Below, one piece after another: positions 2,413-64,000 of a stretch of 64,000 nucleotides of DNA. The stretch is from Spirosoma sp. GTDB lineage: Bacteria > Bacteroidota > Bacteroidia > Cytophagales > Spirosomataceae. The DNA is taken from NCBI RefSeq assembly GCF_026391055.1, contig NZ_JAPLET010000029.1, positions 248,001 to 312,000 of the forward strand, written 5' to 3'. Numbering within the stretch: position 1 is the first letter of the stretch; every line of letters starts with the position of its first letter. A program made the translations under genes and the position numbers. Under the pieces are notes generated by a model, which did not search any database, was not told where the DNA came from, and was given only the letters and a program-made list of their open reading frames with translations.

Positions 2413-2432
2413 ACTAGCGAAGAGTAAGGGGC

Positions 2433-5423: not shown

Positions 5424-5493
5424 GAGATAAATTAATTGAGTAGAGGAAATTGATTGTGTTGGGGTAGTTCACTATAGAATTGTAATAACTCCT

Positions 5494-6741: not shown

Positions 6742-6772
6742 AGAGGGTTTAGGGGAGTTTAGTGGTGGAGCA

Positions 6773-6822
6773 GGTGGGGTGGGTGGTGTCGGGTTCTTAA
6801 ACCCAACTCCACCCACTCCACC
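6773..6822 (-). repeat. Imperfect intra-operon hairpin related to 848-937
   Basis: Arms at 6773-6795 and 6800-6822 pair with three imperfect positions around a four-base loop. The left arm carries the same GGTGG...GGTGTCGGGT wording as the hairpin at 848-937. It begins just past the TGA stop (6826-6828) of the mannonate dehydratase-type gene and lies before the next start in the operon, so both copies occupy the same place relative to a stop codon. Confidence 0.75.
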
Positions 6823-6825
6823 AAA

Positions 6826-8181: not shown

Positions 8182-8234
8182 TTGAGAAAAAGAAAGGTTA
8201 ATAGGTTGTAAGTATGAGGGGTAGGGGTGAATCC

Positions 8235-9770: not shown

Positions 9771-9787
9771 GATTTCTGTCGTTTGGG

Positions 9788-9811
9788 TTTGTCATTGCGG
9801 GAAATGACAGA
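9788..9811 (-). promoter_or_regulatory. Small hairpin between susC and susD
   Basis: TGTCATT (9790-9796) pairs with AATGACA (9803-9809) around a six-base loop, in the 46-base gap between the SusC stop and the SusD start. It could adjust SusD expression relative to SusC. The stem is short, so this is tentative. Confidence 0.4.
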
Positions 9812-9816
9812 AAAAA

Positions 9817-12800: not shown

Positions 12801-12948
12801 CAACAGAAGTACCACTGACCAGAACGTTCACGCCAGGTAATGGCTCCTTGTCCGTACCGGTTACCTTACCGGTTATTCGGTTCGTCTGGGCGTGTAACAG
12901 ACCGCAACTCAGGAGCAGACAACAAAGAAAGATTAGAGCTTTATTCAT
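9817..12948 (-). CDS. SusC/RagA-family TonB-dependent transporter
   Basis: This 1043-residue outer-membrane transporter has a signal peptide (to about residue 21, ending LLHAQ), a carboxypeptidase-D-regulatory-like domain (about 23-100) closed by IDEVVVTALGIKRE, a plug domain with GATAAALYGSRAKDGVVMIT around 235-255, and the barrel. It pairs with the SusD at 8235-9770. A 184-base gap separates it from the upstream enolase-superfamily gene, so an extra promoter before it is possible, but no convincing -33/-7 pair was found there. Confidence 0.96.
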   Translation of the reverse strand: MNKALIFLCCLLLSCGLLHAQTNRITGKVTGTDKEPLPGVNVLVSGTSVGTATDASGNYAINAPANASLIFSYISYVSQTVPVNNRSVVNVELAEDAKAIDEVVVTALGIKREAKTLGYATATVNSEQINVNRTPNFMSGLQGKMAGVNITSMGTGPAGTAKIRIRGQSSFSGQNNPLIVVNGVPIDNSNYSLGGDFGNRASNSSDGGDGLSSINPDDIETMTVLKGATAAALYGSRAKDGVVMITTKSRGSGKGFGVTYNANFTTDTPLDFTDFQYEYGQGEGGKRPTDRNPTSGVWSFGEKFQPGMTQILFDNKTYPYEPVYNRVRQFYRVGTNFTNTVTVSNSGQNGGFSLSFGNTDNRGIMENNTFNRKVINLGFTQNITPKLTAQGNINYSLENNVNPPQLNTQDLSVSTVIFTLANSMPFDALRDNQTLPNGDEFVFSRFLVRNNPYYSMSHKFENVNRNRLFGNVALKYQFTDWLYAQARLAQDYYVRNQEYNIPNGYAPIARAPVGFVNGSYTQDVRQNTERNLDLILGMNKTFGTIGVDVTLGGNHRYARNDYNSVSVQDFVQPGLYTVMNGRIKDPLYSLAEKKINSVFGAATVSYKDFLFLSATARNDWFSTLAPSNRSILYPSVTSSFVFSQAFDNMPAWLSFGKLRAAYAQVGSDNVDPYSNALYFSVDNNSFPNPSGALVPVGGINATVVPNKNLRPLRIQEAEVGLELKLFANKVGFDFTYYHKTTDDQILAAQVSDASSYTSKLINVGRSMNQGLEMLLTFSPVRTTAFRWDVSANVSYNTSKVLKLGLSPNDTVITVSSGGGRTLNQVVGKPIGQLYTFTYLRDAQGRQVFDPNSGMPLRNNTLKNVGNALPNYFGGITNTFTYRGIVLSALIDFKLGHKMIAGRNINYMRHGLSKRTLPGRDVGYVIGNGVNPNGEINQTRAAVQPFYESINPLGINEDFVFNAGFWKLRQISLGYDFDKILPQRFFLKGLRVNAVANNVLIIKKWTENMDPEEVLVSSDNAVGLDFWPGLPPTRSIGFNLNARF

Positions 12949-13132
12949 GTGTAACAGAGATTTAGGGTAGCAGAATAGGCAATGTATTGTCCTTGAATAT
13001 CAATGATTAATACTGATATAATTCTAATTTCTGACAGTGATGAAATGAGTTTACCCAACCCTGATTGGAACAGGATAAAGGAACTACAGCAACAAGCTTT
13101 TAATCGATCTTCAGGTTGTAGAAGGGGTACGC

Positions 13133-49976: not shown

Positions 49977-50391
49977 GTCTTCCGAAGTTAATTGTTGATA
50001 GTAAATTGAAAGAGGTTTATAAAGGACTTTTGCCGGAACAAACCTACACGAAGATGGACCGAGGGGCGCGGTACAAATGGCGGGTATTGCAGTAAAAACA
50101 AGAGATTTTACCCGTAGAGGCCGTACGTAATCAATACCTTCATTGACCCATTGCTCTTTCTCGATGCCGAGCGGCCCACCTTAACGCATCCTGGTATAAC
50201 CCCGGTTTTTATCATTTTTTCAGAAGGGGGTACCCTGCCCGGCGATTCGATTGTCTTTTAGGTAATCAGTGCCCATCTGTTGACGTATTCGCTATTGGTT
50301 AATAAGCCGTTTTTCGAGTCCCTGCTGATTAACCAATAACCCGACAACCGATAACTGATGCTAACTACAACCTGAAAACTGATAGGAATCA
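49977..50391. other. 415-base intergenic region before the peptide locus
   Basis: No coding frame is convincing. It separates the divergent hydrolase gene and the seven-gene operon and must hold the operon promoter. TATTGGTTAAT (50293-50303) and ATTAACCAATA (50338-50348) form an 11-base inverted repeat about 40 bases before the SusC start, which could be a regulator site or hairpin. No exact -33/-7 pair was found. Confidence 0.6.
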
Positions 50392-53300
50392 ATGAGAGAG
50401 TCGCTACAAAAGAGAATACGGTTTCTGTGCTTTTTGATCGTCTTCGTTTCGGTGCTGGCAACGGGCGAGGGCCATAATCGAACAAAGCTGCCTGTTACCA
50501 CTAGTAAAAAAGCGCCCATCACTATTAAAGGAAAAGTAACGGCACAGGAAGACCGGATGGCGTTACCCGGCGTCAACATCAGCATTAAAGGCACCACCGT
50601 AGGGACGACCACGGATGCCGACGGGAACTACTCCATTAGTGTACCGGCCAAAGAAAATACGCTGATCTTTTCGTTTCTGGGGTATATCTCACAGGAAATT
50701 CCGGTTGGCAATCAAACCACTATTAACGTAAGCCTCACCACCGATTCCAAAGTGCTTAATGAAGTGGTTGTAACGGCGCTGGGATTTAAAGAAGAAAAAG
50801 ACCGGATGGGGTCGACTTTATCGGCAATCAAACCCGAAGATATTAAACGCTCCGGCGAAACGGGGGTTATCAACGGGCTGGCCGGGAAGGCGGCTGGCGT
50901 ACAGATCTCGCGTTCTACCGGCGATCCGGGCGCGGGTTCTTACATCCAGATTCGGGGGCAGAATACCATTACGGGCTCTAACCAACCCCTCATTATCATC
51001 GACGGAATACCCATCAGCAACAGCACCACGGGCGATTCCCGGTCTGGCGTGGCGCAGCAGTCGCGTCTCAATGACATCAACCCCGAAGATATTGCTTCCA
51101 TGCAAATCCTGAAGGGGGCCTCGGCCGCCGGTTTGTGGGGGTCGAGGGCCGCCAACGGCGTTATTGTGATCACCACAAAACGCGGGGCTAACGACAATAA
51201 ACTGAGCGTCAACGTCAGCTCGACGGTTTCATTCGATAAGGTCAACGTCATTCACCCCTTACAGGAAGCGTACGGGCAGGGGTCGGGCGGTATCTATAAC
51301 CCAACGACACAGTACTCCTGGGGGGATAAAATTGCCGACCGGTCGGGTGCCGACGATGTGGTTAACATGAATGGTGCCCGTTTCGAGTCGTATCAGGGGA
51401 AAACGTTTTATCCTATTCTTTCCAAAAACTCGAAAGAAACGTATAACCAGGCCCGGCAGGATGCGGTATTCCGGACGGGAACGTATTACGACAACAACGT
51501 TAGCCTGAGCGGGGGCAACGAAAAGGGAAATTTCTACCTCAGTCTGGGCAACCTGAGCCAGAAAGGGATTTTTGCCGGTCAGAGCGATTACAAGCGCAAC
51601 TCGGTTCGCTTCAACTCCAGCCGCCAGTTCAACGACATCATCCGGGCCTCCACCAACGCCAACTTTATCCGGACAACCTCTAACCGAATTCAGAAGGGCG
51701 ATAACACCAGCGGCCTTTACATTGGTATGCTGCGTTCCGCACCCGATTTCGACAGCCGCTACTGGAAAGGGAGTTACTATTCATCGCCCACGGCTGCGGC
51801 CATCCGGAACCGCCAGCGGTCTTATCGGAATTACCTGGGGGCATCGGCCAACCCGAGCTATAACGACCCGCTCTGGACGATCAACGAACTCACCAACCTC
51901 TCGGAAGTCGACCGGTTTATCATGAATTCGGAGATTGTGATTACGCCCAAAGACTGGCTTAGCTTTACCGCCCGCGGTGGTCTGGATACCTATAGCGACC
52001 GCCGGGTAACCAACAACCCGGTATCGTCGGTGGTCAACTCCGGAGCAGGGCAGTACGAGCAGCAGATCATTTCGGAGAAAGAGCTTAACCTCGACGTAAT
52101 CGGACGGGCCAGCAAGGATTTTGGCGAGAACCTAACGAGTACGCTGATTGTCGGCTTTAACGTCAACGACCGCCGGTACAACAGCCTGGGCGGCCAGATG
52201 AACGGTTTCATTCTGGAAGAAGCACCACCAAACTTTGCTAACTCCACCGCCGTCAACAACTACCCGTACAACTCGGAATCACATCGCCGGACGGCCCGTC
52301 TGTACTCCACGCTGAACCTGGGTTTTTTTAACCAGTTGTATGTGAACGGGTCAATTGCCAGTGAGAGTGGGTCTACGTTCGGAAGCGCATCTAAATCGAC
52401 TTTTTTCTATCCGTCTGCCGATGTGGCGTGGCAGTTCAGTCAGTTACCTATTTTCCGGGGTGGGCCGCTTTCGTTCGGTAAGCTGCGGGCTTCTTACGGA
52501 ATTGTGGGTATCCAGCCGGAACCTTATCGGAATACAACCTCGTACGTAACGGCTTCTTTCGGTAGTTGGGCCACTAACCTGACCAGCTCCGGCTACGGGG
52601 GCGCTTACGTGGAAAGTGCCACCCAAGGCGACCCCAACCTGTTTCCGGAGCGCAAAACCGAGTGGGAGATTGGAGGTGATCTGCGATTTTTTAAGAACAA
52701 GCTGACCGTTGGCTATACCTATTACCAGAACAACATCCGGGATTTGCTGCTTCAGGTATCATCGGCGGGGTCTACCGGCTATAGCCAGCGATATACCAAT
52801 GCGGGCAGCATGGAGAACAAGGGCATGGAGGTCGACTTCAACCTGAACGTGCTCCAGAAGAAAGATTTCCAGTGGAATGTGTTTGCCAACTGGAGCCGCA
52901 ACCGGAACCGGGTAACCAGCCTGGGCGGTACCGAAATAGTTACTTTCACGGGCGGGGCGCTGAGTACCGTTGCCCACGTGGGGGATGCCCTGTCGTCTTT
53001 TTATGGGGGCGTTTACCAGCGAAACGAAGACGGTTCTATGAACCTGACGGCTACGGGTTTTCCGAGACTCGGTACTACGCTCGGCATCGTTGGCGACCCG
53101 AACCCCGATTGGCGCGGTGGTTTTGGTACGAATTTCTCCTACAAAAAGCTTTCCCTGAACGTTCTGTTTGAAACCTTTCAGGGGGGCGATTTCTACGAAG
53201 GAACCCGTGGTGTGTTAGTCAACTTCGGGACCTATGCAGACGTAGGCAATGAAGTGACGTTGTCGCAAGACACGTACAACTATGCCGGAACTCTGTTTAA

Positions 53301-53670
53301 AGCGGGCACAGCCCTGCGTGGCAACGTGGTCGATTACGGTGGAGGCCCCGTGCTGCTCGATCAATCCTTCTACACCTCCATTGGCGGGCATTCCGGGCAA
53401 TTGACGGAGCAGTTCGTTCGGGACGGCAGCTGGACCCGGATTCGCGAAATCACCCTGGGCTATCAGTTAAACTCGGCCGGTTTCCGGAAGAAAACGAAGC
53501 TGGAATCGGTCGGGTTCTCGGTAACGGCCCGTAATCCGGTGCTCTGGACCAAAGTGGTTGGCATTGACCCGGAAACCAACGTATCGGGTGTTGGCAATGC
53601 CCGTGGCGTTGACTATTTCAACAATCCAAGTACGAAATCCCTGGTTTTCAGCCTGAAGATCAATTATTAA
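50392..53670 (+). CDS. SusC/RagA-family TonB-dependent transporter
   Basis: This 1092-residue outer-membrane transporter is the first gene of the seven-gene operon. It has a signal region (about residues 1-25), a carboxypeptidase-D-regulatory-like domain (about 43-125), the NEVVVTALGFKEEKDRMG linker, a plug (about 140-265; GASAAGLWGSRAANGVIVIT) and the barrel. The neighbours encode peptidase- and acylase-type enzymes rather than glycosidases, so peptide or acyl-peptide import is inferred. The gap to its SusD is 19 bases. Confidence 0.96.
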   Translation: MRESLQKRIRFLCFLIVFVSVLATGEGHNRTKLPVTTSKKAPITIKGKVTAQEDRMALPGVNISIKGTTVGTTTDADGNYSISVPAKENTLIFSFLGYISQEIPVGNQTTINVSLTTDSKVLNEVVVTALGFKEEKDRMGSTLSAIKPEDIKRSGETGVINGLAGKAAGVQISRSTGDPGAGSYIQIRGQNTITGSNQPLIIIDGIPISNSTTGDSRSGVAQQSRLNDINPEDIASMQILKGASAAGLWGSRAANGVIVITTKRGANDNKLSVNVSSTVSFDKVNVIHPLQEAYGQGSGGIYNPTTQYSWGDKIADRSGADDVVNMNGARFESYQGKTFYPILSKNSKETYNQARQDAVFRTGTYYDNNVSLSGGNEKGNFYLSLGNLSQKGIFAGQSDYKRNSVRFNSSRQFNDIIRASTNANFIRTTSNRIQKGDNTSGLYIGMLRSAPDFDSRYWKGSYYSSPTAAAIRNRQRSYRNYLGASANPSYNDPLWTINELTNLSEVDRFIMNSEIVITPKDWLSFTARGGLDTYSDRRVTNNPVSSVVNSGAGQYEQQIISEKELNLDVIGRASKDFGENLTSTLIVGFNVNDRRYNSLGGQMNGFILEEAPPNFANSTAVNNYPYNSESHRRTARLYSTLNLGFFNQLYVNGSIASESGSTFGSASKSTFFYPSADVAWQFSQLPIFRGGPLSFGKLRASYGIVGIQPEPYRNTTSYVTASFGSWATNLTSSGYGGAYVESATQGDPNLFPERKTEWEIGGDLRFFKNKLTVGYTYYQNNIRDLLLQVSSAGSTGYSQRYTNAGSMENKGMEVDFNLNVLQKKDFQWNVFANWSRNRNRVTSLGGTEIVTFTGGALSTVAHVGDALSSFYGGVYQRNEDGSMNLTATGFPRLGTTLGIVGDPNPDWRGGFGTNFSYKKLSLNVLFETFQGGDFYEGTRGVLVNFGTYADVGNEVTLSQDTYNYAGTLFKAGTALRGNVVDYGGGPVLLDQSFYTSIGGHSGQLTEQFVRDGSWTRIREITLGYQLNSAGFRKKTKLESVGFSVTARNPVLWTKVVGIDPETNVSGVGNARGVDYFNNPSTKSLVFSLKINY

Positions 53671-53689
53671 CTCTAACGACAGCCATCGA

Positions 53690-55138
53690 ATGAAACGACG
53701 ATATAAAACCCTTTGCACCGCCTTGCTGGGATTGATACTTTTCTCCTGTGAGTCGCTGGTGTCCGACCTGAACAAAGACCCCAATAATCCAACAGACGCG
53801 TCTGCCGAATATATTTTTACCGGCACCCAGATCGCCCACATGGCCGCACAGGAAGGCATGGCCAGCCGACTCACCATTGTCTGGACAGGCTATGGGTTCG
53901 GAAGTTTTCAGCAGTTTGGCACCTGGGGACAGTACCAGATCACAGCCGCCAACTTCGACGACGACTGGAACCTGTTCTACACCGGCGTGAATAAAAATGC
54001 CGTTCGGGCACTCGAAAAAGCCGATCAGTTGGGGAACCGTGTGATGGGCGGCATCACCAGGATCATCCAGGCGCAGAACATTGGTACCGTCACGGAGCTC
54101 TGGGGCGATGCGCCGTTTACCGAAGCCAGCGATGCGACTAAATACCCGAACCCACGCTTCGAAACGCAGGCCGAACTGATCCCCAAACTGATTGCCCGGC
54201 TAAACGATGGCATCGCCGATCTGGAATCCGGCATTGGTACGGTGGGCACAAAAGACATCTTCTTTGGTGGTGATGTGACGAAGTGGAAGCAGGTTGCCAA
54301 TACCCTGAAAGCCCGGCTTTATGTCGACCTGAAACAGTACGACAATGCCTACACGGCGGCTACGGCGGGGGTGAGTACGTTCGCTAACTCCATGTATGCC
54401 CTACACGGCACAACGGCCAGCGTGAACGAAAACGCCAACTACAGCTTCCTGACCAACATCCGGGCGGGGAGCATCACCGGCGAAAACGCCTACAATGCCC
54501 TGTTGCTCAACCCCGCCAAGGCGGCTACGTACCGGGGTAATGCCAAAACGAACGAGACGGCCCGGTTCAAATTCTATTACCTCGAAAACGGCGTTAATGC
54601 GCCGGGGGTGATCGAACCCAATACGCTCACGACGAACGCCAGCCGGGGCTTTTTTGCCCGCGATGCCAGTTTTCCGCTCGTAACCTATCAGGAAAACATC
54701 CTGACCCTGGCCGAAATGGCCCTCCGTGCCGGAAAAGGTTTCGACGTGGCGCTAGCACACCTGAATACCTACCGCAGTTTTCTGAACAGTGGCGGCTACC
54801 TGCACGCGACGTATAAAGTGGCCGGTACTTACAAATACGACCCTTATGTGGCCGCCGACTTTGCCCCTGGTGGAATGGAAAACAAAGACGGCATCACGGC
54901 ATCGAACGCCCTGCTGCGGGAAATTCTGGAAGAGCGGTACGTTACCTTTTACGGGCAGCATCTGGGCTGGAATGACGAACGCCGGACCCGTACGGAAGGC
55001 TTGGGCGTTAAACTTCAGCCCAACAACGGCAGTCAGCTACCCTGGCGGTTCATTTACTCCCAGAACGAGTTGAACTCAAACCCGAACAGCCCCCGCTCGG
55101 CCCCGAGCCTGTTTGACCCAATGGCGATTTATAAGTAA
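53690..55138 (+). CDS. SusD-like outer-membrane lipoprotein
   Basis: This 482-residue lipoprotein has its signal ending LFSC with Cys20. The SusD-like 2 landmarks are GTVTELWGDAPFTEASD near residue 130, KQVANTLKARLYVDLKQYD near 205 and the closing EILEERYVTFYGQHLGWNDERR near 425. It binds ligand for the SusC encoded immediately upstream. Confidence 0.93.
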   Translation: MKRRYKTLCTALLGLILFSCESLVSDLNKDPNNPTDASAEYIFTGTQIAHMAAQEGMASRLTIVWTGYGFGSFQQFGTWGQYQITAANFDDDWNLFYTGVNKNAVRALEKADQLGNRVMGGITRIIQAQNIGTVTELWGDAPFTEASDATKYPNPRFETQAELIPKLIARLNDGIADLESGIGTVGTKDIFFGGDVTKWKQVANTLKARLYVDLKQYDNAYTAATAGVSTFANSMYALHGTTASVNENANYSFLTNIRAGSITGENAYNALLLNPAKAATYRGNAKTNETARFKFYYLENGVNAPGVIEPNTLTTNASRGFFARDASFPLVTYQENILTLAEMALRAGKGFDVALAHLNTYRSFLNSGGYLHATYKVAGTYKYDPYVAADFAPGGMENKDGITASNALLREILEERYVTFYGQHLGWNDERRTRTEGLGVKLQPNNGSQLPWRFIYSQNELNSNPNSPRSAPSLFDPMAIYK

Positions 55139-55176
55139 GTTGGGGGTGGTAAAAGCTCCCCGTAACCCAATCTCCA

Positions 55177-57381
55177 ATGAAATTACCCCCTTACTTGTTC
55201 TTTGCCCTTAGTTGCCTGTTTATCAGCCCACTCACCACCAAGGCTCAATTCTCTCCTCAGGAGGCCGATGAATTAGCTAAACAGGCCAAAGGTGTAGAGA
55301 TCGTGAAAGACACATATGGCGTTCCGCACGTGTACGCGAAGACCGACGCCGATGCTATATTCGGTCTCATGTACGTTCAGTGCGAAGAGTACTTCGACAA
55401 AGTAGAAACGTCGATCGTTGGTCGACTGGGGCGTACCGCCGAACTCGAAGGCGAAGCCGCCATCTACCGCGACCTCTGGACGCACATGTACATCGACTCC
55501 GCGCAGGCCGTTCAGCTCTACAAAAAAACACCCGACTGGCTCAAGAAGCTCTGCGATGGTTATGCCGGTGGAATCAACTATTATCTCATTACGCACCCGG
55601 CCGTAAAACCCAAACTGCTGACCCGCGTTGAGCCCTGGGTGATTCTGATGAACAACGTCCCCGCTATGGGCGGCAGCAACGTCGGCGAACCCGATTTCAA
55701 AGCGTTTTACCTGAAAGAGGTGGCGCAGGCCGCTACCGGGAGCCGGAGCTTTACCGCCGAACCACCTAAAAACGACGGCTCTAACGGCTGGGCACTGGCT
55801 CCGTCGCGAACGAAGAATAAGAAGGCTATCCTGCTCATCAACCCCCATTCGGAATACTATGGCCGACTGGAAGTTCAGATGGTGAGCAACGAAGGGCTAA
55901 ATGTGTATGGCGCACCGTTTCTGGGGCAGTTTAACATTTTTCAGGGCTTCAACGAGTTCTGCGGCTGGATGCACCCCGTTTCGCTGTCGGATGCCAAAGA
56001 CCTGTACGCCGAGGTCGTCGAACGCAGAAACGGCAGGCTGATGTACCGCTACAACGGTGCCTGGAAATCGGTCGACAGCACCACGCACGAACTTCGGTAC
56101 AAGAAAAAAGGGGGCGGGCTAGGCACGAAAACGTTTGTTACCTACCGAACTCACCACGGCCCGATCGTGTACGCCACCGCCACCCGCTGGATTGCCCTCA
56201 AAACGTATGAGCCTAACATCGACCTGCTGGCTATGAACTGGCTGAAAACCAAAGCCCGGAACCTGAAGGAGTTTACTACTGCCATTAACAAACGGGCTAT
56301 GGTGGGCAGCAACATTGTGTATGCCGATAAGGCCGGGAACATTGCCTACTGGCACGGGAACTTCGTACCGAAGAAAAACCCGCTTCTCGACTGGCGACGA
56401 CCCGTCGACGGAACCACCCCGGCGACGGAATGGCAGGGGACACACGAGTTGACCGACATGCCGCACTACCTCAACCCGGCAAACGGCTGGATCCAGAACT
56501 GCAACTCAACGCCGTTGTACGCCATCGGTAAGCTGGATACGGTCATGTTGAAACTGCCGTCCTATATGCTTCCCGATGGCCATACCCCACGGGCCGTTCA
56601 TGCCGTTCGGGTGCTGACGCTCCTCAAAAATGCGACGATGGACGATGTCATCGCGGCCTCGTACGACAATTATCTGCCCAGCGGGGAGCGGTTTATCCCG
56701 AGTCTGGTTGCCGCTTACAATGCGGTATCCTCAGATTCTATCCGTACGAAACTGGCTCAACCCATCGAGGTGCTAAAACAGTGGGATTTCAGGGCCGACA
56801 CCAGTTCCGTTGCGACCACGCTGGCGGTACACTGGATGGAAAAAATAATTCAACTCGATATGGCCCGTCTGGCGAAACCCGCCACCACAGAGGAACAATA
56901 CGCATTAACGAACGGAGCAGCCATCACCACCGAGTTCATTTCGCCCATGGAGCAGGTCACGGCGCTGGCTCAGGTCGTGGCCGAACTCGAAAAGGAGTTT
57001 GGCACCTGGCAGGTTGCCTGGGGAACGGACAACCGGTTTCAGCGGACGGCCGATAACGAACCCAGCGACGACAAACCAAGCTGGGCCGTACCTGCCACAC
57101 CCGGTTTTATGGGCTCACTGAATGCCTATGTGAGCCGAAAGACACCAAAAACGCACAAACGCTACGGAATTACGGGCAATACGTTCGTAGCCGCCGTCGA
57201 GTTTGGCGATAAACTCCGGGCTAAAACCATCCTGACCGGCGGAGCCAGCACCGATCCCAGTTCTCCGCATTATCTGGATCAGGTAAAGGGCTATATTAAC
57301 GGTACGTACAAGGAGATTTATTTCTATAAAGACGAGGTGTATAAACACGCCGAAAAAATTTACCATCCCGGCGATAAGTGA
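55177..57381 (+). CDS. Penicillin acylase-family Ntn hydrolase (S45)
   Basis: This 734-residue precursor of a periplasmic N-terminal-nucleophile amidohydrolase has a signal peptide (to about residue 23, TTKAQ). An alpha region begins VEIVKDTYGVPHVYAKTDAD, and the autoproteolytic site is at Gly-Ser202 in NDGSNGWALAPSRT; Ser202 becomes the catalytic beta-chain N-terminus. Substrates of the family include penicillins, N-acyl-homoserine lactones, aculeacin-type lipopeptides and N-acyl amino acids. The alpha/beta split and length are normal. In this operon it would remove an acyl cap before the peptidases act. Confidence 0.92.
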   Translation: MKLPPYLFFALSCLFISPLTTKAQFSPQEADELAKQAKGVEIVKDTYGVPHVYAKTDADAIFGLMYVQCEEYFDKVETSIVGRLGRTAELEGEAAIYRDLWTHMYIDSAQAVQLYKKTPDWLKKLCDGYAGGINYYLITHPAVKPKLLTRVEPWVILMNNVPAMGGSNVGEPDFKAFYLKEVAQAATGSRSFTAEPPKNDGSNGWALAPSRTKNKKAILLINPHSEYYGRLEVQMVSNEGLNVYGAPFLGQFNIFQGFNEFCGWMHPVSLSDAKDLYAEVVERRNGRLMYRYNGAWKSVDSTTHELRYKKKGGGLGTKTFVTYRTHHGPIVYATATRWIALKTYEPNIDLLAMNWLKTKARNLKEFTTAINKRAMVGSNIVYADKAGNIAYWHGNFVPKKNPLLDWRRPVDGTTPATEWQGTHELTDMPHYLNPANGWIQNCNSTPLYAIGKLDTVMLKLPSYMLPDGHTPRAVHAVRVLTLLKNATMDDVIAASYDNYLPSGERFIPSLVAAYNAVSSDSIRTKLAQPIEVLKQWDFRADTSSVATTLAVHWMEKIIQLDMARLAKPATTEEQYALTNGAAITTEFISPMEQVTALAQVVAELEKEFGTWQVAWGTDNRFQRTADNEPSDDKPSWAVPATPGFMGSLNAYVSRKTPKTHKRYGITGNTFVAAVEFGDKLRAKTILTGGASTDPSSPHYLDQVKGYINGTYKEIYFYKDEVYKHAEKIYHPGDK

Positions 57382-57390
57382 TCATTATCT

Positions 57391-59034
57391 ATGAAAAGAC
57401 GTGAGTTTGCGAAGTTATCCGGTCTGGGTCTGAGCGCTACCCTGTTTGCGGGTGGAGCAATGGCCGGAAACCGGATTTCGGCGGAGGAATTGCTGAATCC
57501 GGGTTTGGATGTGGCGGTAAAAAAACGACTGGCAGATGCCGCCCTGAACGCGGCCAAAAGTAAAGGGGCCACCTATGCCGATGTACGGGTGGGCCGGTAT
57601 CTGAGGCAGTACCTGTTCACGAGGGAAAACAAGGTGCAGAACATTGTCAATTCGGAGTCGTACGGTATTGGCATCCGGGTCATTGCCAACGGCACCTGGG
57701 GCTTTGCGTCGACCAATGAAATGACGCCCGCCAGCATTGCCGCCTGTGCCGAAATGGCCGTGGAAATGGCGAAGGCCAATGCCGAAATTCAGCTGGAACC
57801 GGTGGTGCTGGCCCCGCAGAAAGGGGTAGGGGAGCAAACCTGGCGAACACCCATCCAGAAGAATGCCTTCGATATTCCGGTTAAGGAAAAGATCGACCTG
57901 CTGATGGAGGTGAACGGTGCCGCCATGAAAAACGGTGCGTCGTTCGTTACGTCCAATCTCTTCTTCGTGAACGAACAGAAGTACTTTGCCTCTACCGATG
58001 GCTCGTACATCGACCAGGACGTGCATCGAATGTGGCCCACCTTTACGGTATCGGCGGTGAACAAACAGACGGGCCGTTTCAAAACCCGCGACGCGCTCAG
58101 TGCGCCCATCGGCATGGGATACGAATACCTGAGCAACAAAGCTTCCGAGAAAATTGTGGTGCCCAATGGTCCGACCGTGTATCGGTATGCCTACGATATG
58201 ATCGAGGATGCCACGCTGGCGGCTCTTCAGGCCAAAGAAAAACTATCGGCAAAATCAGTACCGGCGGGAAAGTACGACATGATTCTCGATCCGTCCAACC
58301 TGGGTCTGACCATCCACGAGTCCGTCGGACACCCGCTCGAACTGGACCGGGTGCTGGGTTATGAAGCCAATCTGGCCGGTACCAGCTTCGCGTCGATGGA
58401 AAAGCTGAAATCGAAGAACTTTCAGTATGGCAGCAAGATCGTCAATCTGATGGCCGATAAAATCCAGCCCAACACCATGGGTCTGGTGGCCTACGACGAC
58501 GAAGGTGTTCCCTGTAAACAGTGGCCGCTGGTGAAAGACGGTATTCTGGTCAATTTTCAGGCCACCCGCGATCAGGTGCATCTGCTGGGCGAGAACGAAT
58601 CGCAGGGGTGCAGCTTCGCCGAAAGCTGGGACAGTGTGCAGTTTCAGCGAATGCCCAACGTGTCGCTGCAACCGGGGCCGGACAAATACAGCATTCACGA
58701 CATGATTAAGGACACCGAAAAAGGAATTTATATTCTGGGGCGCGGGTCGTCGTCCATTGATCAGCAGCGGTACAACTTCCAGTTCAGCGGGCAGCTTTTT
58801 TACGAGATTAAAAATGGGGCTATTGTGGGTATGCTGGACGATGTGGCGTACCAGTCCAACACCCAGGAATTCTGGAATTCCTGCGCCAGAATCTGTGACA
58901 AAGACGATTATCGCCTGTTCGGAACCTTCTTCGATGGTAAAGGGCAGCCGGGTCAGGTGAGTGCCGTTTCGCACGGATGTCCCACCACGCGCTTCAACGG
59001 TGTCAATGTAATCAACACAGGTCGTAAAATTTAA
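57391..59034 (+). CDS. tldD: Tat-exported TldD-family metallopeptidase
   Basis: This 547-residue protein carries the TldD zinc motif HESVGH (residues 309-314) in TIHESVGHPLELD, and Cys530 in SHGCPTTRFNG as the likely third ligand. TldD forms a heterodimeric protease with TldE that degrades unfolded peptides and trims leader peptides of modified peptides such as microcin B17. The N-terminus is a twin-arginine signal (MKRREFAKLSG, then a hydrophobic run ending AMAG), whereas the well-known enzymes are cytoplasmic. It starts nine bases after the acylase stop. Confidence 0.92.
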   Translation: MKRREFAKLSGLGLSATLFAGGAMAGNRISAEELLNPGLDVAVKKRLADAALNAAKSKGATYADVRVGRYLRQYLFTRENKVQNIVNSESYGIGIRVIANGTWGFASTNEMTPASIAACAEMAVEMAKANAEIQLEPVVLAPQKGVGEQTWRTPIQKNAFDIPVKEKIDLLMEVNGAAMKNGASFVTSNLFFVNEQKYFASTDGSYIDQDVHRMWPTFTVSAVNKQTGRFKTRDALSAPIGMGYEYLSNKASEKIVVPNGPTVYRYAYDMIEDATLAALQAKEKLSAKSVPAGKYDMILDPSNLGLTIHESVGHPLELDRVLGYEANLAGTSFASMEKLKSKNFQYGSKIVNLMADKIQPNTMGLVAYDDEGVPCKQWPLVKDGILVNFQATRDQVHLLGENESQGCSFAESWDSVQFQRMPNVSLQPGPDKYSIHDMIKDTEKGIYILGRGSSSIDQQRYNFQFSGQLFYEIKNGAIVGMLDDVAYQSNTQEFWNSCARICDKDDYRLFGTFFDGKGQPGQVSAVSHGCPTTRFNGVNVINTGRKI

Positions 59035-59089
59035 AAACCATGCCACGGAGATGCACCGCACATCTCTATGGCACCAAAACAGCTGAAGC

Positions 59090-60406
59090 ATGGCAATTTT
59101 ATCCCAGGAGGAAGCCAAAAAGATCATAGATAAGGTATTAGGGTATTCCAAATCCGACGAGATGAAGGTCGAACTGACCGGCGGTCGGTCCGGGAATATT
59201 CGCTTCGCCCGCAACTCGGTATCCACTGCCGGAGCGTCCAATAACCTGGCGCTGTCCATTACCTCGGTGCTGGGAAAGAAAACGGGTACGTCGGATATCA
59301 ACGAGTTTGACGATGCATCGCTGGAAAAAGCCGTTCGTCGGGCCGAAGAAATGGCGCGGCTGGCCCCCGAAAATCCGGAGTACATGCCGATGCCGGGGCC
59401 GCAGACGTTCGGCAAACCGCAGGCTTTTGTCGATACCACAGCCAACATGAAAGCCCCCGACCGGGCCAAACTCGCCGGAGCCAGCATCAAATCCATCCGC
59501 GACAGTCAGTTGAGCGGGGCGGGTTTTCTGGAAGACTCCGCGAATTTTAACGCCATCGGCAATAGCAAAGGCCTTTTCGGATACCACAAAAGTACCAATG
59601 TCGACTTCTCGCTGACCATTCGCACCCCCGACGGCACCGGTTCCGGCTATGCTGCGGGTGATTTCAACGACGTCAGCAAACTTAACACGGCTGCACTGAC
59701 CGAGGTTGCTATTCAAAAAGCGAAGGCGTCGCAAAAGGCCGTTGCGCTGGAGCCGGGCAAGTACACCGTTATTCTGGAGCCGCTGGCTGCTGGCGAACTG
59801 GTGCAATTCATGGTCCGCGCTATGGAAGCCCGCACCGCCGACGAAGGCCGTAGTTTCCTGAGCAAGAAAGGTGGTGGGACGCGTCTGGGTGAAAAGATAC
59901 TCGACGAGCGGGTCACAATTTATTCCGATCCCGGAAACGGGCAGATTCCCGGTTCGCCGTTTTCGTCGGAGGGCTACCCGCACGAAAAGGTGATGTGGTT
60001 CGACAAGGGCGTGGTCAAAAATATGTCTTACTCGCCGTACTGGGCGCAGCAAAAAGGGGCGAAGCCGCTCCCGCAACCGTCGGGCTTTGTCATGGAAGGG
60101 GGCTCGCAATCCCTGGCCGAACTCATCAAAGGAACCGAAAAGGGCATTCTGGTCACTCGTTTCTGGTACACCCGCTGGCTCGACCCGCAGACCCTGCTCT
60201 ATACCGGCCTCACCCGCGACGGCACCTTTTACATCGACAAGGGACAAATAAAGCACCCGGTCAAAAACTTCCGCTTCAATGAAAGCCCGGTCATCATGCT
60301 CAATAACCTGGAGGCTATGGGGATTCCGGTTCGGACGCGGGGTAATCTGGTACCGCCGTTGCGCATTCGGGACTTCACGTTCAGCAGCCTTTCGGATGCG
60401 GTGTAA
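59090..60406 (+). CDS. tldE: TldE/PmbA-family protease subunit
   Basis: This 438-residue partner of TldD lacks the HExxxH motif, as TldE proteins do. It has the family pattern ELTGGRSGNIRFARNSVSTA near the N-terminus and KGTEKGILVTRFWYTRWLDP near residue 340-360. It has no signal peptide (MAILSQEEAKKIIDKVLG), although its partner carries a Tat signal. It would have to be exported as a folded complex with TldD, or TldD must act without it. It lies 55 bases after tldD. Confidence 0.92.
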   Translation: MAILSQEEAKKIIDKVLGYSKSDEMKVELTGGRSGNIRFARNSVSTAGASNNLALSITSVLGKKTGTSDINEFDDASLEKAVRRAEEMARLAPENPEYMPMPGPQTFGKPQAFVDTTANMKAPDRAKLAGASIKSIRDSQLSGAGFLEDSANFNAIGNSKGLFGYHKSTNVDFSLTIRTPDGTGSGYAAGDFNDVSKLNTAALTEVAIQKAKASQKAVALEPGKYTVILEPLAAGELVQFMVRAMEARTADEGRSFLSKKGGGTRLGEKILDERVTIYSDPGNGQIPGSPFSSEGYPHEKVMWFDKGVVKNMSYSPYWAQQKGAKPLPQPSGFVMEGGSQSLAELIKGTEKGILVTRFWYTRWLDPQTLLYTGLTRDGTFYIDKGQIKHPVKNFRFNESPVIMLNNLEAMGIPVRTRGNLVPPLRIRDFTFSSLSDAV

Positions 60407-60444
60407 GAAGACAATTTCATTACTAACTCTATTTCCCTTCACCC

Positions 60445-61533
60445 ATGAAAAAACTCACCGGACTTGTCTTATCGCTCTTGTTAGTGGCCATCCTGCACCA
60501 CCAGACAATGGCGCAGGAAGCTGCGTCTACAACTCAGGCAAACGCCGTTCAGCGTCAGTTGGCCGCCATGCAGCATCAGTTCGATGCGCTCGACAAAGCC
60601 ATTGACGACCTCACCTGGAGCCAGCGGCTGGGCGATGCTACCGTTGTGGACAAAGTCATCATTACCGGGCCGCCACCGGCCGTTATCAAAAATCCTACCG
60701 GGCAGGGGGCCAAAAACCCGGTTCGCTTTTCGGCCTATGTATTCATCCCGGCTAAGATCGATCCGGCCAAAAAATACCCCCTGCTGGTGTTGCCGCATGG
60801 CGGGGTTCATAGCAACTTTAACACGGCTTATGCGCATATTATCAAAGAACTAACGGCGCAGGAATACGTAGTTATTGCGCCCGATTATCGGGGTAGCACC
60901 GGTTACGGGCAGGGGTTTTACCAACTCATCGACTACGGCGGACTGGAAGTGGAGGATACCAAAAGCTGCCGCGACTACATGCTCGATAACTACGATTTTA
61001 TCGACAAAAAACGCGTCGGGATTATGGGCTGGAGTCATGGCGGGATGATTACGCTGCTCAACCTGTTCGACCACCCGTCAGATTATGCCGTGGGATACGC
61101 CGGTGTTCCCGTAAGCGACCTCGTTGCCCGGATGGGCTACAAGAGTCAGAGTTACCGGGATGCCTATTCGGCGGATTACCACATCGGTAAATCGGCCGAC
61201 CAGAACGTGGCCGAATACCGCAGACGTTCTCCGGCCTGGAATGCCGAAAAGCTACAGACGCCCCTGTTGATACATACCAACACCAACGACGAAGATGTAA
61301 ACGTGCTGGAAGTGGAACACCTGATCAAATCGCTGAAAGCCGAGGGTAAAAAATTCGAGTACGAAATCTACAAAGAAGCACCGGGTGGGCATACCTTCAA
61401 CCGGATCGACTCGTACGGGGCCAAAGAAAGCCGCATGAAAATCTATGATTTTCTGGCCCAGTACCTCAAGCCCAACAAGAAGTTCAAAGACGTAAAAGCC
61501 CTCATCGAAGCCAGCTACTTCCCTAAGAAGTAG
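60445..61533 (+). CDS. S9-type prolyl oligopeptidase-like hydrolase
   Basis: This 362-residue secreted alpha/beta hydrolase has a signal peptide (to about residue 23, QTMAQ). The catalytic triad is Ser197 (MGWSHGGM), Asp282 (TNDEDVNV) and His316 (PGGHTFNR). It resembles the catalytic domain of dipeptidyl peptidase/prolyl oligopeptidase relatives but lacks the beta-propeller. It could cleave short peptides or esters released by the operon's other enzymes. Gap to the preceding gene is 38 bases. Confidence 0.9.
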   Translation: MKKLTGLVLSLLLVAILHHQTMAQEAASTTQANAVQRQLAAMQHQFDALDKAIDDLTWSQRLGDATVVDKVIITGPPPAVIKNPTGQGAKNPVRFSAYVFIPAKIDPAKKYPLLVLPHGGVHSNFNTAYAHIIKELTAQEYVVIAPDYRGSTGYGQGFYQLIDYGGLEVEDTKSCRDYMLDNYDFIDKKRVGIMGWSHGGMITLLNLFDHPSDYAVGYAGVPVSDLVARMGYKSQSYRDAYSADYHIGKSADQNVAEYRRRSPAWNAEKLQTPLLIHTNTNDEDVNVLEVEHLIKSLKAEGKKFEYEIYKEAPGGHTFNRIDSYGAKESRMKIYDFLAQYLKPNKKFKDVKALIEASYFPKK

Positions 61534-61556
61534 TATCGACGGTCGGTACTACAATC

Positions 61557-62720
61557 ATGAAAAATCTATACCGGATCTTTATTTTAAGCCTTTGCAGCGT
61601 TGGGCTGGCGATTGGTTCGCTGGCCCAAACGCCACAAGTTCGCACGTCACCCGTACACCCGGTCGCGGATTCGTACGTGTTGGATTACCTTCAGCAGGTA
61701 GCCAACCAAAGTGGCGCACCGGGCGTTTCGGCAGCTGTTTCGGTGAGGGGGAAGACCGTCTTTTCGGGGGGCGTTGGCTATGCCGATCTGGATAACCGGG
61801 TGCCGCAAAACGGCAAAACGGTACATTGCATCGGATCGGTTTCCAAAGCGGTGGCCGTTATTGCCGTGATGCAACTGGAAGAAAAAGGGCTGCTCAATCT
61901 GAACGACGAAATTCAGAAATACCTGCCATACATGCCAAAAAAGCAGAAACCCATTACGATCAACCAGATTCTCACGCACACGTCAGGCATCCGGCATTAC
62001 GCAAAGCAGGATAATGATAACTACAATATCAAACGGATGCGGCATTACGACACGTTCGAAGAAGCCACGACCATCTTCCGCGACGATCCGCTGCTCTTTG
62101 AGCCTGGAGCCTACTATTCTTACTCGTCCTATTCGAGCAGCCTGATGCACGGCATCGTAGAAAAAGTATCGGGTGTTCCGTTTGAGGAGTACATGAAGAG
62201 AAACATCTGGCAACCCGCAGGTATGTTGAGCACCTGCTTCGATGTGCCCTCCCGAATTGTGGCTAATCGGGGGAAAGGGTACGTGAAAGATACGGATGGT
62301 ACGCTCGTCAACGCACCCTACGAAGATGTCAGCTACAAGTATTCCAGTGGCGGTATTCTTTCCACGCCCGAAGACATGCTGAAACTGGCCGTAGCCCTCA
62401 ACAAAGGCGTTCTGCTGAAACCCGCCACACTCGAAAAGCTCTACAAACCTCAGTTCGACAAGAACAAAAAGGACTTCCGGGCAAACCCAAACCAGCCTAA
62501 AGAACCACTGGAGCAGGGGCTCATCTGGTGGAGTGGCAAAGACCGGCAGGGACGCACCTGGTACGGGCATAGCGGCACCGTGAAAGGCACCCGTTCCTTC
62601 CTGATCAACTTTCCCGCAGAGCAGGTGGTTGTGGCGATTCAGGCCAATATCGGATCGATAAAAATCGACGAATACGCTATTGAACTGGCGCAACTGTTCC
62701 TGGTCGATTCTGGTAGATAG
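61557..62720 (+). CDS. Class C beta-lactamase-type serine hydrolase
   Basis: This 387-residue secreted serine hydrolase has a signal peptide (to about residue 23, GSLAQ). It has the SxxK motif S94-V-S-K97, a Tyr-containing second motif in YYSYSSYSSSLM and an HSG triad at 338-340 in WYGHSGTVKGT. The family (PF00144) contains beta-lactamases, D-amino-acid peptidases and esterases. In this setting D-peptidase or esterase activity is more likely than antibiotic resistance. It is the last gene of the operon, 23 bases after the S9-type gene. Confidence 0.92.
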   Translation: MKNLYRIFILSLCSVGLAIGSLAQTPQVRTSPVHPVADSYVLDYLQQVANQSGAPGVSAAVSVRGKTVFSGGVGYADLDNRVPQNGKTVHCIGSVSKAVAVIAVMQLEEKGLLNLNDEIQKYLPYMPKKQKPITINQILTHTSGIRHYAKQDNDNYNIKRMRHYDTFEEATTIFRDDPLLFEPGAYYSYSSYSSSLMHGIVEKVSGVPFEEYMKRNIWQPAGMLSTCFDVPSRIVANRGKGYVKDTDGTLVNAPYEDVSYKYSSGGILSTPEDMLKLAVALNKGVLLKPATLEKLYKPQFDKNKKDFRANPNQPKEPLEQGLIWWSGKDRQGRTWYGHSGTVKGTRSFLINFPAEQVVVAIQANIGSIKIDEYAIELAQLFLVDSGR

Positions 62721-62750: not shown

Positions 62751-63359
62751 TCAGGCAATGAGCAGTACATCACTAACATCGAAAACGATTTCCATAAGCA
62801 CACTGAAGGCAAGGCCAATGTCTTTTTTAACGGCAAACCGGATCACTTTCATCGACTTCACCATGTGCTTTTTAATGGCGTTACTGGAGATGCCCAAAAT
62901 CTGGGCGGCCTCTTCATAACTTTTCTCCTGCTGTCGGCAAAGTCTAAAAACGGTTCGGCTTTGGGGCGGCAGGGTATCGAGGGTAGTCTGGAGAAACTGC
63001 TGGTATTCTTTCAACTGAAGGGATTCTTCGGTATCATTCTTCGACAGGCAATAATTACTGGAGACATACGTCTTGATCCGGTTTTCGACGGCTGCCCGTC
63101 TCAAAAAATTAAATGTGTGATTTCGGGTAACTGCGAAAAGATAGGCGCTAAACGATTTGATATCCAGCAGCTTGTGCCGGTCTTCCCAGATTTTTATGAA
63201 AACCTCCTGGCAGATATCATTTGCTACATCTGCCGATTCGATGTAACGAATGATAAATCGGCAAATAGAGGGATGATAAAAGGCATATAGCTTACCAAAG
63301 GCTTTTTCGTCTCCAGCGGAGAGTTGAGCGAGCAACAGGCTTTCGTTCGGAAAAATCAT
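62751..63359 (-). CDS. ECF RNA polymerase sigma factor
   Basis: This 202-residue sigma-70 family ECF factor has region 2 (about residues 25-95; SADVANDICQEVFIKIWEDRHKL split over the core-binding helix) and region 4 (about 130-180; TLPPQSRTVFRLCRQQEKSY with the HTH SYEEAAQILGISSNAIKKHM). A hydrophobic tail of about 20 residues (GLAFSVLMEIVFDVSDVLLI) follows. It is convergent with the peptide operon and has no FecR-type anti-sigma gene beside it in the window, unlike most Bacteroidota SusC-linked sigma factors. Confidence 0.93.
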   Translation of the reverse strand: MIFPNESLLLAQLSAGDEKAFGKLYAFYHPSICRFIIRYIESADVANDICQEVFIKIWEDRHKLLDIKSFSAYLFAVTRNHTFNFLRRAAVENRIKTYVSSNYCLSKNDTEESLQLKEYQQFLQTTLDTLPPQSRTVFRLCRQQEKSYEEAAQILGISSNAIKKHMVKSMKVIRFAVKKDIGLAFSVLMEIVFDVSDVLLIA

Positions 63360-63746
63360 TGAATGAAGAAGTTTTGATAGACATGGGTATTGATCGTTAC
63401 GGATTTGGGTGGATAAAACAGGCCGCGAACCAGACAGAAAAGAATCGTCAAACAGGTAATCTTGAAATAAATCTATTTTTGTTTATTTAATTAAAATTTA
63501 ATTCTAAAGTTTAGTTAAATATAAAAATATTATTCTCACTATGTTTAGAAATATGAAATTTAATGGATTCTTTGATCTACGGTAATTATGGCTGAAAATG
63601 ATGGATAAACTTATGGCTTAAGGTGATTTTTGCCGCCTGTGCGTAGTGACTACACCCGGATTGGTGGATGATCTGGCAGAATGCCTGTTCAAAAATCAGT
63701 ATCTTGACCGCTTTAAAAGCTCTTGACTAACTTTTACAAAAACAGT
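63360..63746. other. 387-base intergenic region between sigma factor and M20-type peptidase
   Basis: The central part (63470-63570) is very AT-rich. Before the peptidase start, TTG (63704-63706), a 21-base spacer and TAACTTTT (63728-63735) weakly resemble a promoter. No gene or repeat was recognised. Confidence 0.55.
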
Positions 63747-64000
63747 ATGCTAAACCGACTACCCACCTGTCTTACCGGACTATTGATCGCCAGCTTACTA
63801 ACCCACTCTACGCTACAGGCGCAGGATCTGGAACCGGGCAAACTGGCTAACGTGCAAACCCAGTACAGTAAGGAAATTGACCAGTTAGCGAAGAATAAGC
63901 AGGTCCAGAAGGCGTTTCAATTCATTGCCGCCCAAAACAAACGGAACCGCGACGAACTGATTATGCTCACCGAGATTCCGGCTCCGCCCTTTCAGGAAGA
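63747..64000 (+). CDS. M20-type peptidase, N-terminal fragment
   Basis: The first 84 codons of a gene that continues past the window. It has a signal peptide (MLNRLPTCLTGLLIASLLTH...LQAQ) followed by a helical segment and LIMLTEIPAPPFQE. The last phrase is typical of the start of the catalytic domain in M20 dinuclear-zinc aminopeptidases. Its position next to the acylase/TldDE operon fits a role in peptide breakdown. Identification rests on a short stretch. Confidence 0.65.
   Translation, partial: MLNRLPTCLTGLLIASLLTHSTLQAQDLEPGKLANVQTQYSKEIDQLAKNKQVQKAFQFIAAQNKRNRDELIMLTEIPAPPFQE

Follow-up and report, generated by a model that had tools for sequence, protein, structure and literature searches.

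Within a stretch of 64,000 nucleotides from the 7.98-Mb genome of a Spirosoma sp. (G000:C24:248001-312000; hereafter, the window), we found seven plus-strand genes that join a SusC/SusD outer-membrane pair to an Ntn-hydrolase acylase, the two protease subunits TldD and TldE, and two further hydrolases. We read this set as a peptide-type SusCD utilisation locus whose substrates would be N-acylated (capped) peptides, and we put the probability of this reading at roughly 0.55. The locus is a real, conserved and probably peptide-directed variant of the SusCD nutrient locus.

The first gene (50392..53670, +) encodes a SusC-type TonB-dependent transporter of 1092 amino acids (TIGR04056, E=1e-182, with Plug and CarbopepD_reg_2 domains), and the second (53690..55138, +) encodes a SusD-like surface lipoprotein of 482 amino acids with a Cys at position 20 (PF12771, 7e-27). 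Behind them lies the acylase, which is of the cephalosporin-acylase type (55177..57381, +; 734 amino acids; PF01804, Penicil_amidase, 3e-113). TldD, the catalytic subunit, has the motif HESVGH and a twin-arginine motif, MKRREFAKLSG (57391..59034, +; PmbA_TldD domains; Escherichia coli TldD at 9e-18), and its non-catalytic partner TldE (PmbA) lacks the twin-arginine motif (59090..60406, +; PmbA_TldD_3rd, 2e-42). The last two genes encode an S9-type alpha/beta hydrolase of 362 amino acids (60445..61533, +; PF00326, 1e-36) and a 387-amino-acid serine hydrolase of PF00144, the class C beta-lactamase/S12-like family (61557..62720, +; 8e-69). Like the acylase, both carry Sec-type N-terminal signals, read by eye. 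All seven families were identified far above chance in Pfam and NCBIfam searches of the seven proteins. An earlier annotation made from the letters alone (the sequence-only reading) had described these genes as joined with gaps of 9 to 55 bases, and this was confirmed: the gaps between the seven open reading frames (ORFs) are, in order, 19, 38, 9, 55, 38 and 23 bases. Its statement that no glycosidase is present also held, as Pfam detected no glycosidase, glycan lyase or glycan esterase among the seven proteins. The adjoining SusC and SusD genes (TIGR04056 and PF12771, gap 19) mark a SusCD locus, and the remaining genes do not make it a polysaccharide locus. Judged by their spacing and conserved order, the seven genes are presumably co-transcribed.

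We then asked whether the enzymes travel with this SusCD pair. A search of 222 genomes of the family found the window SusD in 18 of them, the window's own included, at 73-100% identity; the next matches were in 25 places at ~60-66% (one, in G464, in pieces at 60 and 71%), followed by ~73 lower ones. We compared the 17 other high-identity loci, fetched as stretches of 18-20 kb, with 14 of the 25 loci at 60-66% and 11 lower ones, fetched as stretches of 14-20 kb. In the high-identity loci SusC is 75-87% identical to the window's (in L115 it is in two pieces, at 79 and 91%). An acylase follows SusCD in 17/17 of them, split into two ORFs in L045 and in some loci preceded by one to three M20 genes, and the TldD-TldE pair is present in 16/17, the exception being L036 (g20). 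Neither the acylase nor TldDE was found in any of the 14 loci with SusD at 60-66% or in any of the 11 lower ones (0/25 in all). Within the loci sampled, the enzymes thus accompany this particular SusCD, with which the secreted hydrolases are conserved. The sequence-only reading had proposed searching for the same gene order in other Bacteroidota, and the order indeed recurs in Spirosoma, Dyadobacter and Rhabdobacter; an apparent Siphonobacter genome (L036) and two Pontibacter genomes hold the locus, but both versions are without TldDE.

The rest of the set is more variable. S9 is present in 14/17 loci; the fetched stretches of L120-L122 end at an M14 gene, and in L185, a record matching L122, S9 and the PF00144 gene lie behind M14. 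M14 occurs in 6/17 loci, the PF00144 gene in 6/17 (counting L145), and a second acylase in 3/17 (L036, L111, and L039 as continued in L145). Of the variable partners that we could identify in relatives, most hydrolyse amide bonds: M20, M14, a second acylase and gamma-glutamyltransferase (GGT). Among a few neighbours of the lower-identity SusDs that we ran against Pfam were sortilin/Vps10-type propellers, PD40-amidohydrolase, M20, MacB/FtsX and PIG-L proteins. Sortilin/Vps10-type beta-propeller proteins of 1095-1115 amino acids stand beside SusCD in L123, L127 and L164, the last being a Pontibacter acylase locus.

These data bear on another explanation, general oligopeptide scavenging, in which ordinary protein fragments would be imported and the acylase would only occasionally clear formyl, acetyl or pyroglutamyl N-termini. 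That peptidases (M14, M20, S9, TldDE) dominate the variable part of the locus fits this explanation, as does the description of SusCD peptide importers in excerpts of PMC7782687. However, the acylase is the most constant enzyme of the locus and is even doubled in some loci, so it looks central rather than incidental, and it is also paired with a quite different SusCD in the six uncultured GGT loci and in L178, described below. We consider scavenging possible, though not likely.

To follow the acylase beyond the family, we scanned genome contigs with the acylase alignment, which confirmed 245 candidates; the best 80 of these, all named, were taken further. Among the 36 loci with acylases at least 50% identical to the window's, SusC lies upstream in 18, and we found TldDE in 10, GGT in 6, M20 in 6, M14 in 5, S9 in 10 and the PF00144 gene in 5. 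Among the 44 loci with acylases below 50%, SusC lies within 9 kb upstream in 2, several genes away, and the same test detected TldDE, GGT, M20, M14, S9 or the PF00144 gene in none. The association with SusC is significant by Fisher's test (p 3e-6), on rows that are not phylogenetically independent. Of the 18 SusC-linked loci, nine are in the family (Spirosoma endophyticum, S. terrae, S. panaciterrae, S. validum and Spirosoma sp. 48-14; Dyadobacter koreensis and Dyadobacter sp. CY356 and 3J3; Rhabdobacter roseus) and nine are outside it. Pontibacter harenae and P. silvestris have SusC at 71-73%, SusD at 68%, M20 genes and the acylase, with M14 in P. harenae, and no TldDE within the fetched stretch of either; their loci further include a Vps10-type protein and a PD40-amidohydrolase, beside ORFs that we could not assign. 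In seven loci of uncultured Bacteroidota the acylase accompanies a quite different SusCD (SusC 27-28% identical to the window's). Six of these (L171, L174, L175, L176, L180 and L181, one of them named Chitinophagaceae) consist of an extracytoplasmic function (ECF) sigma factor, a FecR match or FecR-sized ORF, SusC, SusD, the acylase and GGT, as judged by Pfam for L171 and by BLAST for the others; the seventh, L178, has M20 before SusC and ends after the acylase. Two unlike SusCDs beside the acylase mean that the acylase is tied to SusCD in at least two versions. Two Bacteroidota-clade acylases came from assemblies with non-Bacteroidota names, the metagenome-assembled genomes 'Williamsia' (L168) and 'Comamonas' (L177), perhaps misbinned or misnamed.

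Another possibility is that the substrates are N-acyl amino acid or aryl-amino acid conjugates, small molecules of plants or soil such as acyl-glutamate or gamma-glutamyl compounds, with acylase, M20 and GGT freeing the amino acid and the peptidases being secondary. GGT adjoins the acylase in the 6 of 36 loci noted above; one M20 protein (M20c of L118) passes the TIGR01891 amidohydrolase cut-off (249.7 versus 153.75 bits), and another (M20b of L045) resembles glutamate carboxypeptidase, below its cut-off (172 versus 349 bits). Against this, TldDE, M14 and S9 act on peptides, M20 and GGT are both missing from the window operon, and SusCD cavities suit oligomers. Thus, we regard conjugates as an unlikely main substrate and keep capped peptides as the preferred one.

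The acylase itself belongs to PF01804 at 381 bits. Its predicted beta-chain N-terminal Ser202 aligns with the beta-chain start of the glutaryl-7-aminocephalosporanic acid (GL-7-ACA) acylase 1keh (3e-44), and His224 aligns with His23 of that enzyme. Ser202 and the motif GSNG are invariant across 26 alignment rows; GSNGW matches 13/20 rows, some of which repeat a locus. GL-7-ACA (cephalosporin) acylases are the closest solved relatives (3e-44), and an AlphaFold2 model built from the 26-row alignment (mean predicted local distance difference test score [pLDDT], 86) matched them at template modeling (TM) scores of 0.77-0.79 by query length and 0.83-0.85 by target length; for 1keh the values were 0.78 and 0.83, at 22% identity. 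In the fold ranking they were followed by D-succinylase, the N-acyl homoserine lactone (AHL) acylase MacQ, penicillin G acylases and PvdQ; GL-7-ACA acylase is nearer than the AHL acylases MacQ and PvdQ in both sequence and predicted fold. We take beta-chain Arg57, Gln50 and Tyr33 of GL-7-ACA acylase to be its glutaryl-pocket residues. At these positions the window acylase holds Phe255, Phe248 and Arg230, in an alignment made by eye, and with Phe255 and Arg230 in place of Arg57 and Tyr33 it does not qualify as a GL-7-ACA acylase by function. With Phe and Arg in place of the glutaryl-binding residues, the acyl group is no less likely to be hydrophobic or aryl than to be dicarboxylic. The genome also encodes a second acylase (G000:C15:702083-704278), 43% identical to that of the operon, beside which (L046) there is neither SusD nor TldDE and a SusC-like ORF lies ~6 kb off on the other strand. 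An acylase match at E<=1e-50 was present in 78/101 genomes of the family.

The sequence-only reading had listed homoserine lactones among the possible substrates. A further explanation, that the locus protects against antibiotics and signals or consumes them, would have the acylase act on beta-lactams or AHLs and the PF00144 protein act as a beta-lactamase. It is suggested by the cephalosporin-acylase type, by PvdQ as the sole NCBIfam match of the acylase and by the PF00144 family. However, the PvdQ match reaches 93 bits against a cut-off of 950, so a PvdQ-type AHL acylase was rejected. A class C beta-lactamase was likewise rejected for the PF00144 protein, which reaches 78 bits against the 415 of the general model NF033085, in a comparison covering 25 listed of 48 matching families. 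The nearest PDB entry to that protein is LACTB (3e-47), followed by a peptidase-type/penicillin-binding set including alkaline D-peptidase; its motifs GSxSK and GHSG are present in 9/9 rows, one row repeating a locus. Together with the replaced glutaryl-binding Arg, these results led us to reject AHL or beta-lactam degradation as the main role, and uptake through SusCD would bring the drug in. We therefore consider this explanation highly improbable. We give just as little credence to peptidoglycan or muropeptide recycling and tailoring. The PF00144 protein (DD-peptidase-like), M14 and the acylases could act on muropeptides, but we found no wall-recycling gene among the seven proteins or among the extra genes run through Pfam, some ORFs of related loci being unassigned.

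The S9 assignment of the sequence-only reading was right as to family and needs narrowing as to architecture: the protein is a single catalytic domain, without the beta-propeller of dipeptidyl peptidase (DPP)-type enzymes. It matches a PDB S9 peptidase at 2e-24, and GWSHGG and GGHTF occur in 18/18 rows, two of them repeating a locus. A lasso-peptide isopeptidase was rejected for this protein (NF033523, 35 versus 400 bits, with the catalytic domain alone covered).

The TldD/TldE pair bears on where digestion would take place. We gathered 51 TldD and 44 TldE copies from the fetched loci, the window's included, one TldD being cut off. HExxxH is present in 51/51 TldD and 0/44 TldE, and the two genes adjoin, as in a TldD/TldE protease. 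A regular expression around the third-metal-ligand Cys matched 27/51 TldD, as a pattern at the sequence level only. For twin-arginine translocation (Tat) we relied on the motif RRxF, since N-terminal hydropathy separated TldD from TldE poorly, some ORF starts having been called too far upstream. RRxF lies near the N-terminus in 50/50 TldD that reach it (48 by pattern and two by eye, those ORFs having no ATG there) and in 0/44 TldE. TldD homologues were found at E<=1e-60 in 108/291 genomes of the order and at E<=1e-100 in 39/395 of the phylum; of 29 copies from these searches, some from genomes already sampled, 24 have RRxF and 5 RKDF. RK is a weaker variant of the twin-arginine motif. The source genome has one TatC match. 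In E. coli, neither TldD nor TldE is active without the other, and the pair breaks down unfolded peptides starting at the N-terminus, as described in excerpts of PMC5810440, and Tat export of heterodimers carrying one signal is known, according to excerpts of PMC10924467. Given a Tat motif on TldD, two subunits that act only as a pair, and a Tat system that moves one-signal heterodimers, the simplest reading would be that the heterodimer is exported with TldE hitchhiking on TldD. The Tat motif of TldD, which like the Sec-type signals of the other three enzymes had gone unmentioned in the sequence-only reading, points to periplasmic digestion. A literature search found no report of Tat-exported TldD, nor, among the matches listed, of TldD with SusCD.

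We next considered the origin of the operon pair. The source genome holds three TldDs, two of them in tandem TldD-TldE pairs with the Tat motif on contig C3 (L005, C3:276001-296000; 2364-12988, minus strand). These are followed by two small ORFs, a DUF4159 protein (Pfam) and a MoxR-like AAA ATPase (weak matches), and then by ORFs that match DUF58 and BatA/VWA genes in size and were named by eye. ORF sizes alone suggest the same arrangement behind TldDE in 9/19 loci of the order (L091-L094, L098, L099, L102, L105 and L109), some of the remaining loci within L091-L109 ending early. A literature search on TldD with MoxR returned unrelated matches only. In a tree of 50 TldDs, rooted by midpoint only, the 17 operon copies form one clade with support 100/100. 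Nearest to it (fork 91/72, not starred) are four of the family's first copies in the housekeeping cluster; the clade, these four neighbours and one copy of another family make up 22 rows with starred support of 100/98. The operon pair occurs in four genera: apparently Spirosoma (g1), Dyadobacter (g32) and Rhabdobacter (g24), and the genus of G003. A single clade beside housekeeping-cluster copies suggests that it is most simply a duplicate of a housekeeping-type pair that was acquired once and then either retained or passed on together with the operon. In one locus (L110 of G445, 2879-5901, minus strand) a second TldDE from the other housekeeping branch of the tree stands where other loci have the PF00144 gene. 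A plasmid search with TldD at E<=1e-100 returned two actinobacterial records at ~40%, whose matches begin only at residues 45 and 64; thus, TldD was not seen on Bacteroidota plasmids of that collection. The sequence-only reading had also suggested ribosomally synthesized, post-translationally modified peptides (RiPPs) as substrates. Nothing that we found ties the locus to RiPPs, and we recognised no RiPP gene in the operon, although no dedicated RiPP search was made. RiPP processing was rejected for the operon TldD, whose clade derives from a housekeeping-type copy.

Downstream of the seven genes lies an ECF sigma factor gene of the Bacteroidota type on the opposite strand (62751..63359, -; TIGR02985, 1e-43), a candidate regulator, which ends 30 bases past the last operon gene. 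A homologue at 45-69% is present in 11/17 orthologous loci as fetched, as well as in L167 and L185, the Dyadobacter records that extend L119 and L122. In Rhabdobacter (L039) the ECF gene is upstream, with a FecR anti-sigma gene, and in L036 FecR is present and SusC has an N-terminal extension with a FecR_C-like match. In Spirosoma the ECF gene is convergent, and the window SusC has no N-terminal extension and no STN signalling domain that we could see. A 117-amino-acid FecR-like stub lies upstream of SusC in L090 (G337, 3314-3667), and at ~50210-50265 of the window, in frames read by eye, there are only short FecR-similar residues. The stub suggests decay of cell-surface signalling, and in Spirosoma the regulation of the locus was apparently rewired. 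Beyond the ECF gene, an M20 peptidase gene begins on the plus strand (63723..64000; PF01546, 4e-16; continued in L004:3723-5069). The sequence-only reading had this peptidase follow the set; the gene is real, but it stands behind the convergent ECF gene as a separate unit and is not in the operon here. Its longest ORF starts from TTG at 63723, with a likelier ATG a few codons downstream, and only its first ~84-92 codons are inside the window. With a convergent gene in between and an M20 start so near the window end, a shared transcript is very unlikely. A homologue of this M20 at 57% identity is present in L164, one of the Pontibacter loci.

Several observations weigh against our reading of the locus. 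The Sec and Tat assignments come from motifs and inspection by eye, without a signal-peptide predictor. Promoter-like sites (10 versus 9.9 expected) and terminator-like sites (17 versus 18.5) are at chance level and give no support for one transcript; the strict Bacteroidota promoter pattern occurs 2 times in the window versus 1.2 expected, neither before SusC. As fetched, 18/36 acylases at >=50% have no SusC upstream, some of the contigs being short, and six Runella acylases at 60-61% (L159-L163, L186) are outside any SusCD locus. Spirosoma arboris (L151) has acylase, TldDE and ECF without SusC, SusD, S9 or the PF00144 gene. The g20 and Pontibacter versions lack TldDE, which is therefore not essential to the core, and the window operon itself lacks M14 as well as M20 and GGT. 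Substrate specificity of the acylase cannot be read from membership in PF01804, and the pocket replacements described above belong here too. For SusD, the predicted model (mean pLDDT 83) had as its best fold match BT2259 (4q69), with BT2263 at ranks 5 and 8, and excerpts of PMC7782687 report that the Bt2261-64 complex, including BT2263, binds oligopeptides. However, the match is weak (TM 0.65-0.69, with identity to the best PDB folds of just 15-20%), and a glycan-binding SusD-like protein stands at rank 4, above BT2263; therefore, the fold supports a peptide ligand only weakly. In the L151 locus, a ThuA/GSDH protein and a CotH protein lie upstream.

Taken with these points, the following pathway is the one we propose for capped peptides. 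SusCD would import short capped peptides across the outer membrane, and a periplasmic Ntn acylase would take off the N-acyl cap. The TldD/E metalloprotease, exported folded by Tat with TldE on TldD's signal, would then trim from the freed N-terminus, and the S9 and PF00144 hydrolases, joined in relatives by M14 and M20 enzymes, would complete digestion, probably under the control of the locus ECF sigma factor. The stepwise decapping and peptide use put forward in the sequence-only reading thus fits the transporter, the deacylase, the peptidases and the absence of glycosidases, but no substrate that it named gained support in particular. More broadly, we see an even chance that part of the Bacteroidota moved TldD/E out of the cytoplasm, with a Tat signal on TldD and TldE riding along as part of a folded, metal-loaded heterodimer, and that a duplicated pair was incorporated into a SusCD locus, where it would trim peptides at their N-termini within a new class of nutrient system that handles acyl-capped peptides.

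The new features of this defined seven-gene set are its fixed acylase, a Tat-tagged TldD with a tagless TldE, and a TldDE pair apparently recruited from a housekeeping-type locus. SusCD loci are best known for handling glycans; here, amide-bond enzymes led by an Ntn acylase replace the glycosidases, which suggests that certain Bacteroidota of soil and plants feed on N-capped peptides. If it is true that TldD and TldE leave the cytoplasm together, a microcin-processing type of protease would be placed in the periplasm of a bacterial lineage, and hitchhiker export would extend to a protease pair. No protease pair exported by Tat hitchhiking is known to us, and the literature searches yielded none among the matches listed.

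Compared with known systems, the locus resembles polysaccharide utilisation loci in its SusCD pair, its secreted hydrolases and its ECF sigma factor (with FecR in L036 and L039), but its hydrolases are of amide- and peptide-cleaving families, and there is no carbohydrate-active enzyme among the window's seven proteins. RagAB of Porphyromonas gingivalis and BT2261-2264 of Bacteroides thetaiotaomicron share with it a SusC/SusD pair without a glycosidase, and the fold likeness is to BT2259 and BT2263. Excerpts of PMC7782687, where SusCD cavity size is also discussed, describe RagAB and BT2261-2264 as oligopeptide transporters; the SusCD of the present locus is instead firmly linked with an acylase, TldDE and further amide hydrolases. 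With GL-7-ACA acylase (1keh/3s8r), the window acylase shares the family, the fold, the autoprocessing Ser at the beta-chain start and the His23 equivalent, and it differs in overall sequence and in the glutaryl pocket. Like E. coli TldD/TldE, the microcin B17 leader protease, the operon pair is a two-gene heterodimeric metalloprotease with HExxxH in TldD only; unlike it, TldD has an N-terminal Tat motif and TldE has none, and the genes stand beside a nutrient importer, not a RiPP cluster. A signal on one subunit of a dimer is also the arrangement of Tat hitchhiker complexes such as hydrogenases and formate dehydrogenases. Those named in the excerpts of PMC10924467 are cofactor-containing redox enzymes, whereas the pair described here is a protease.

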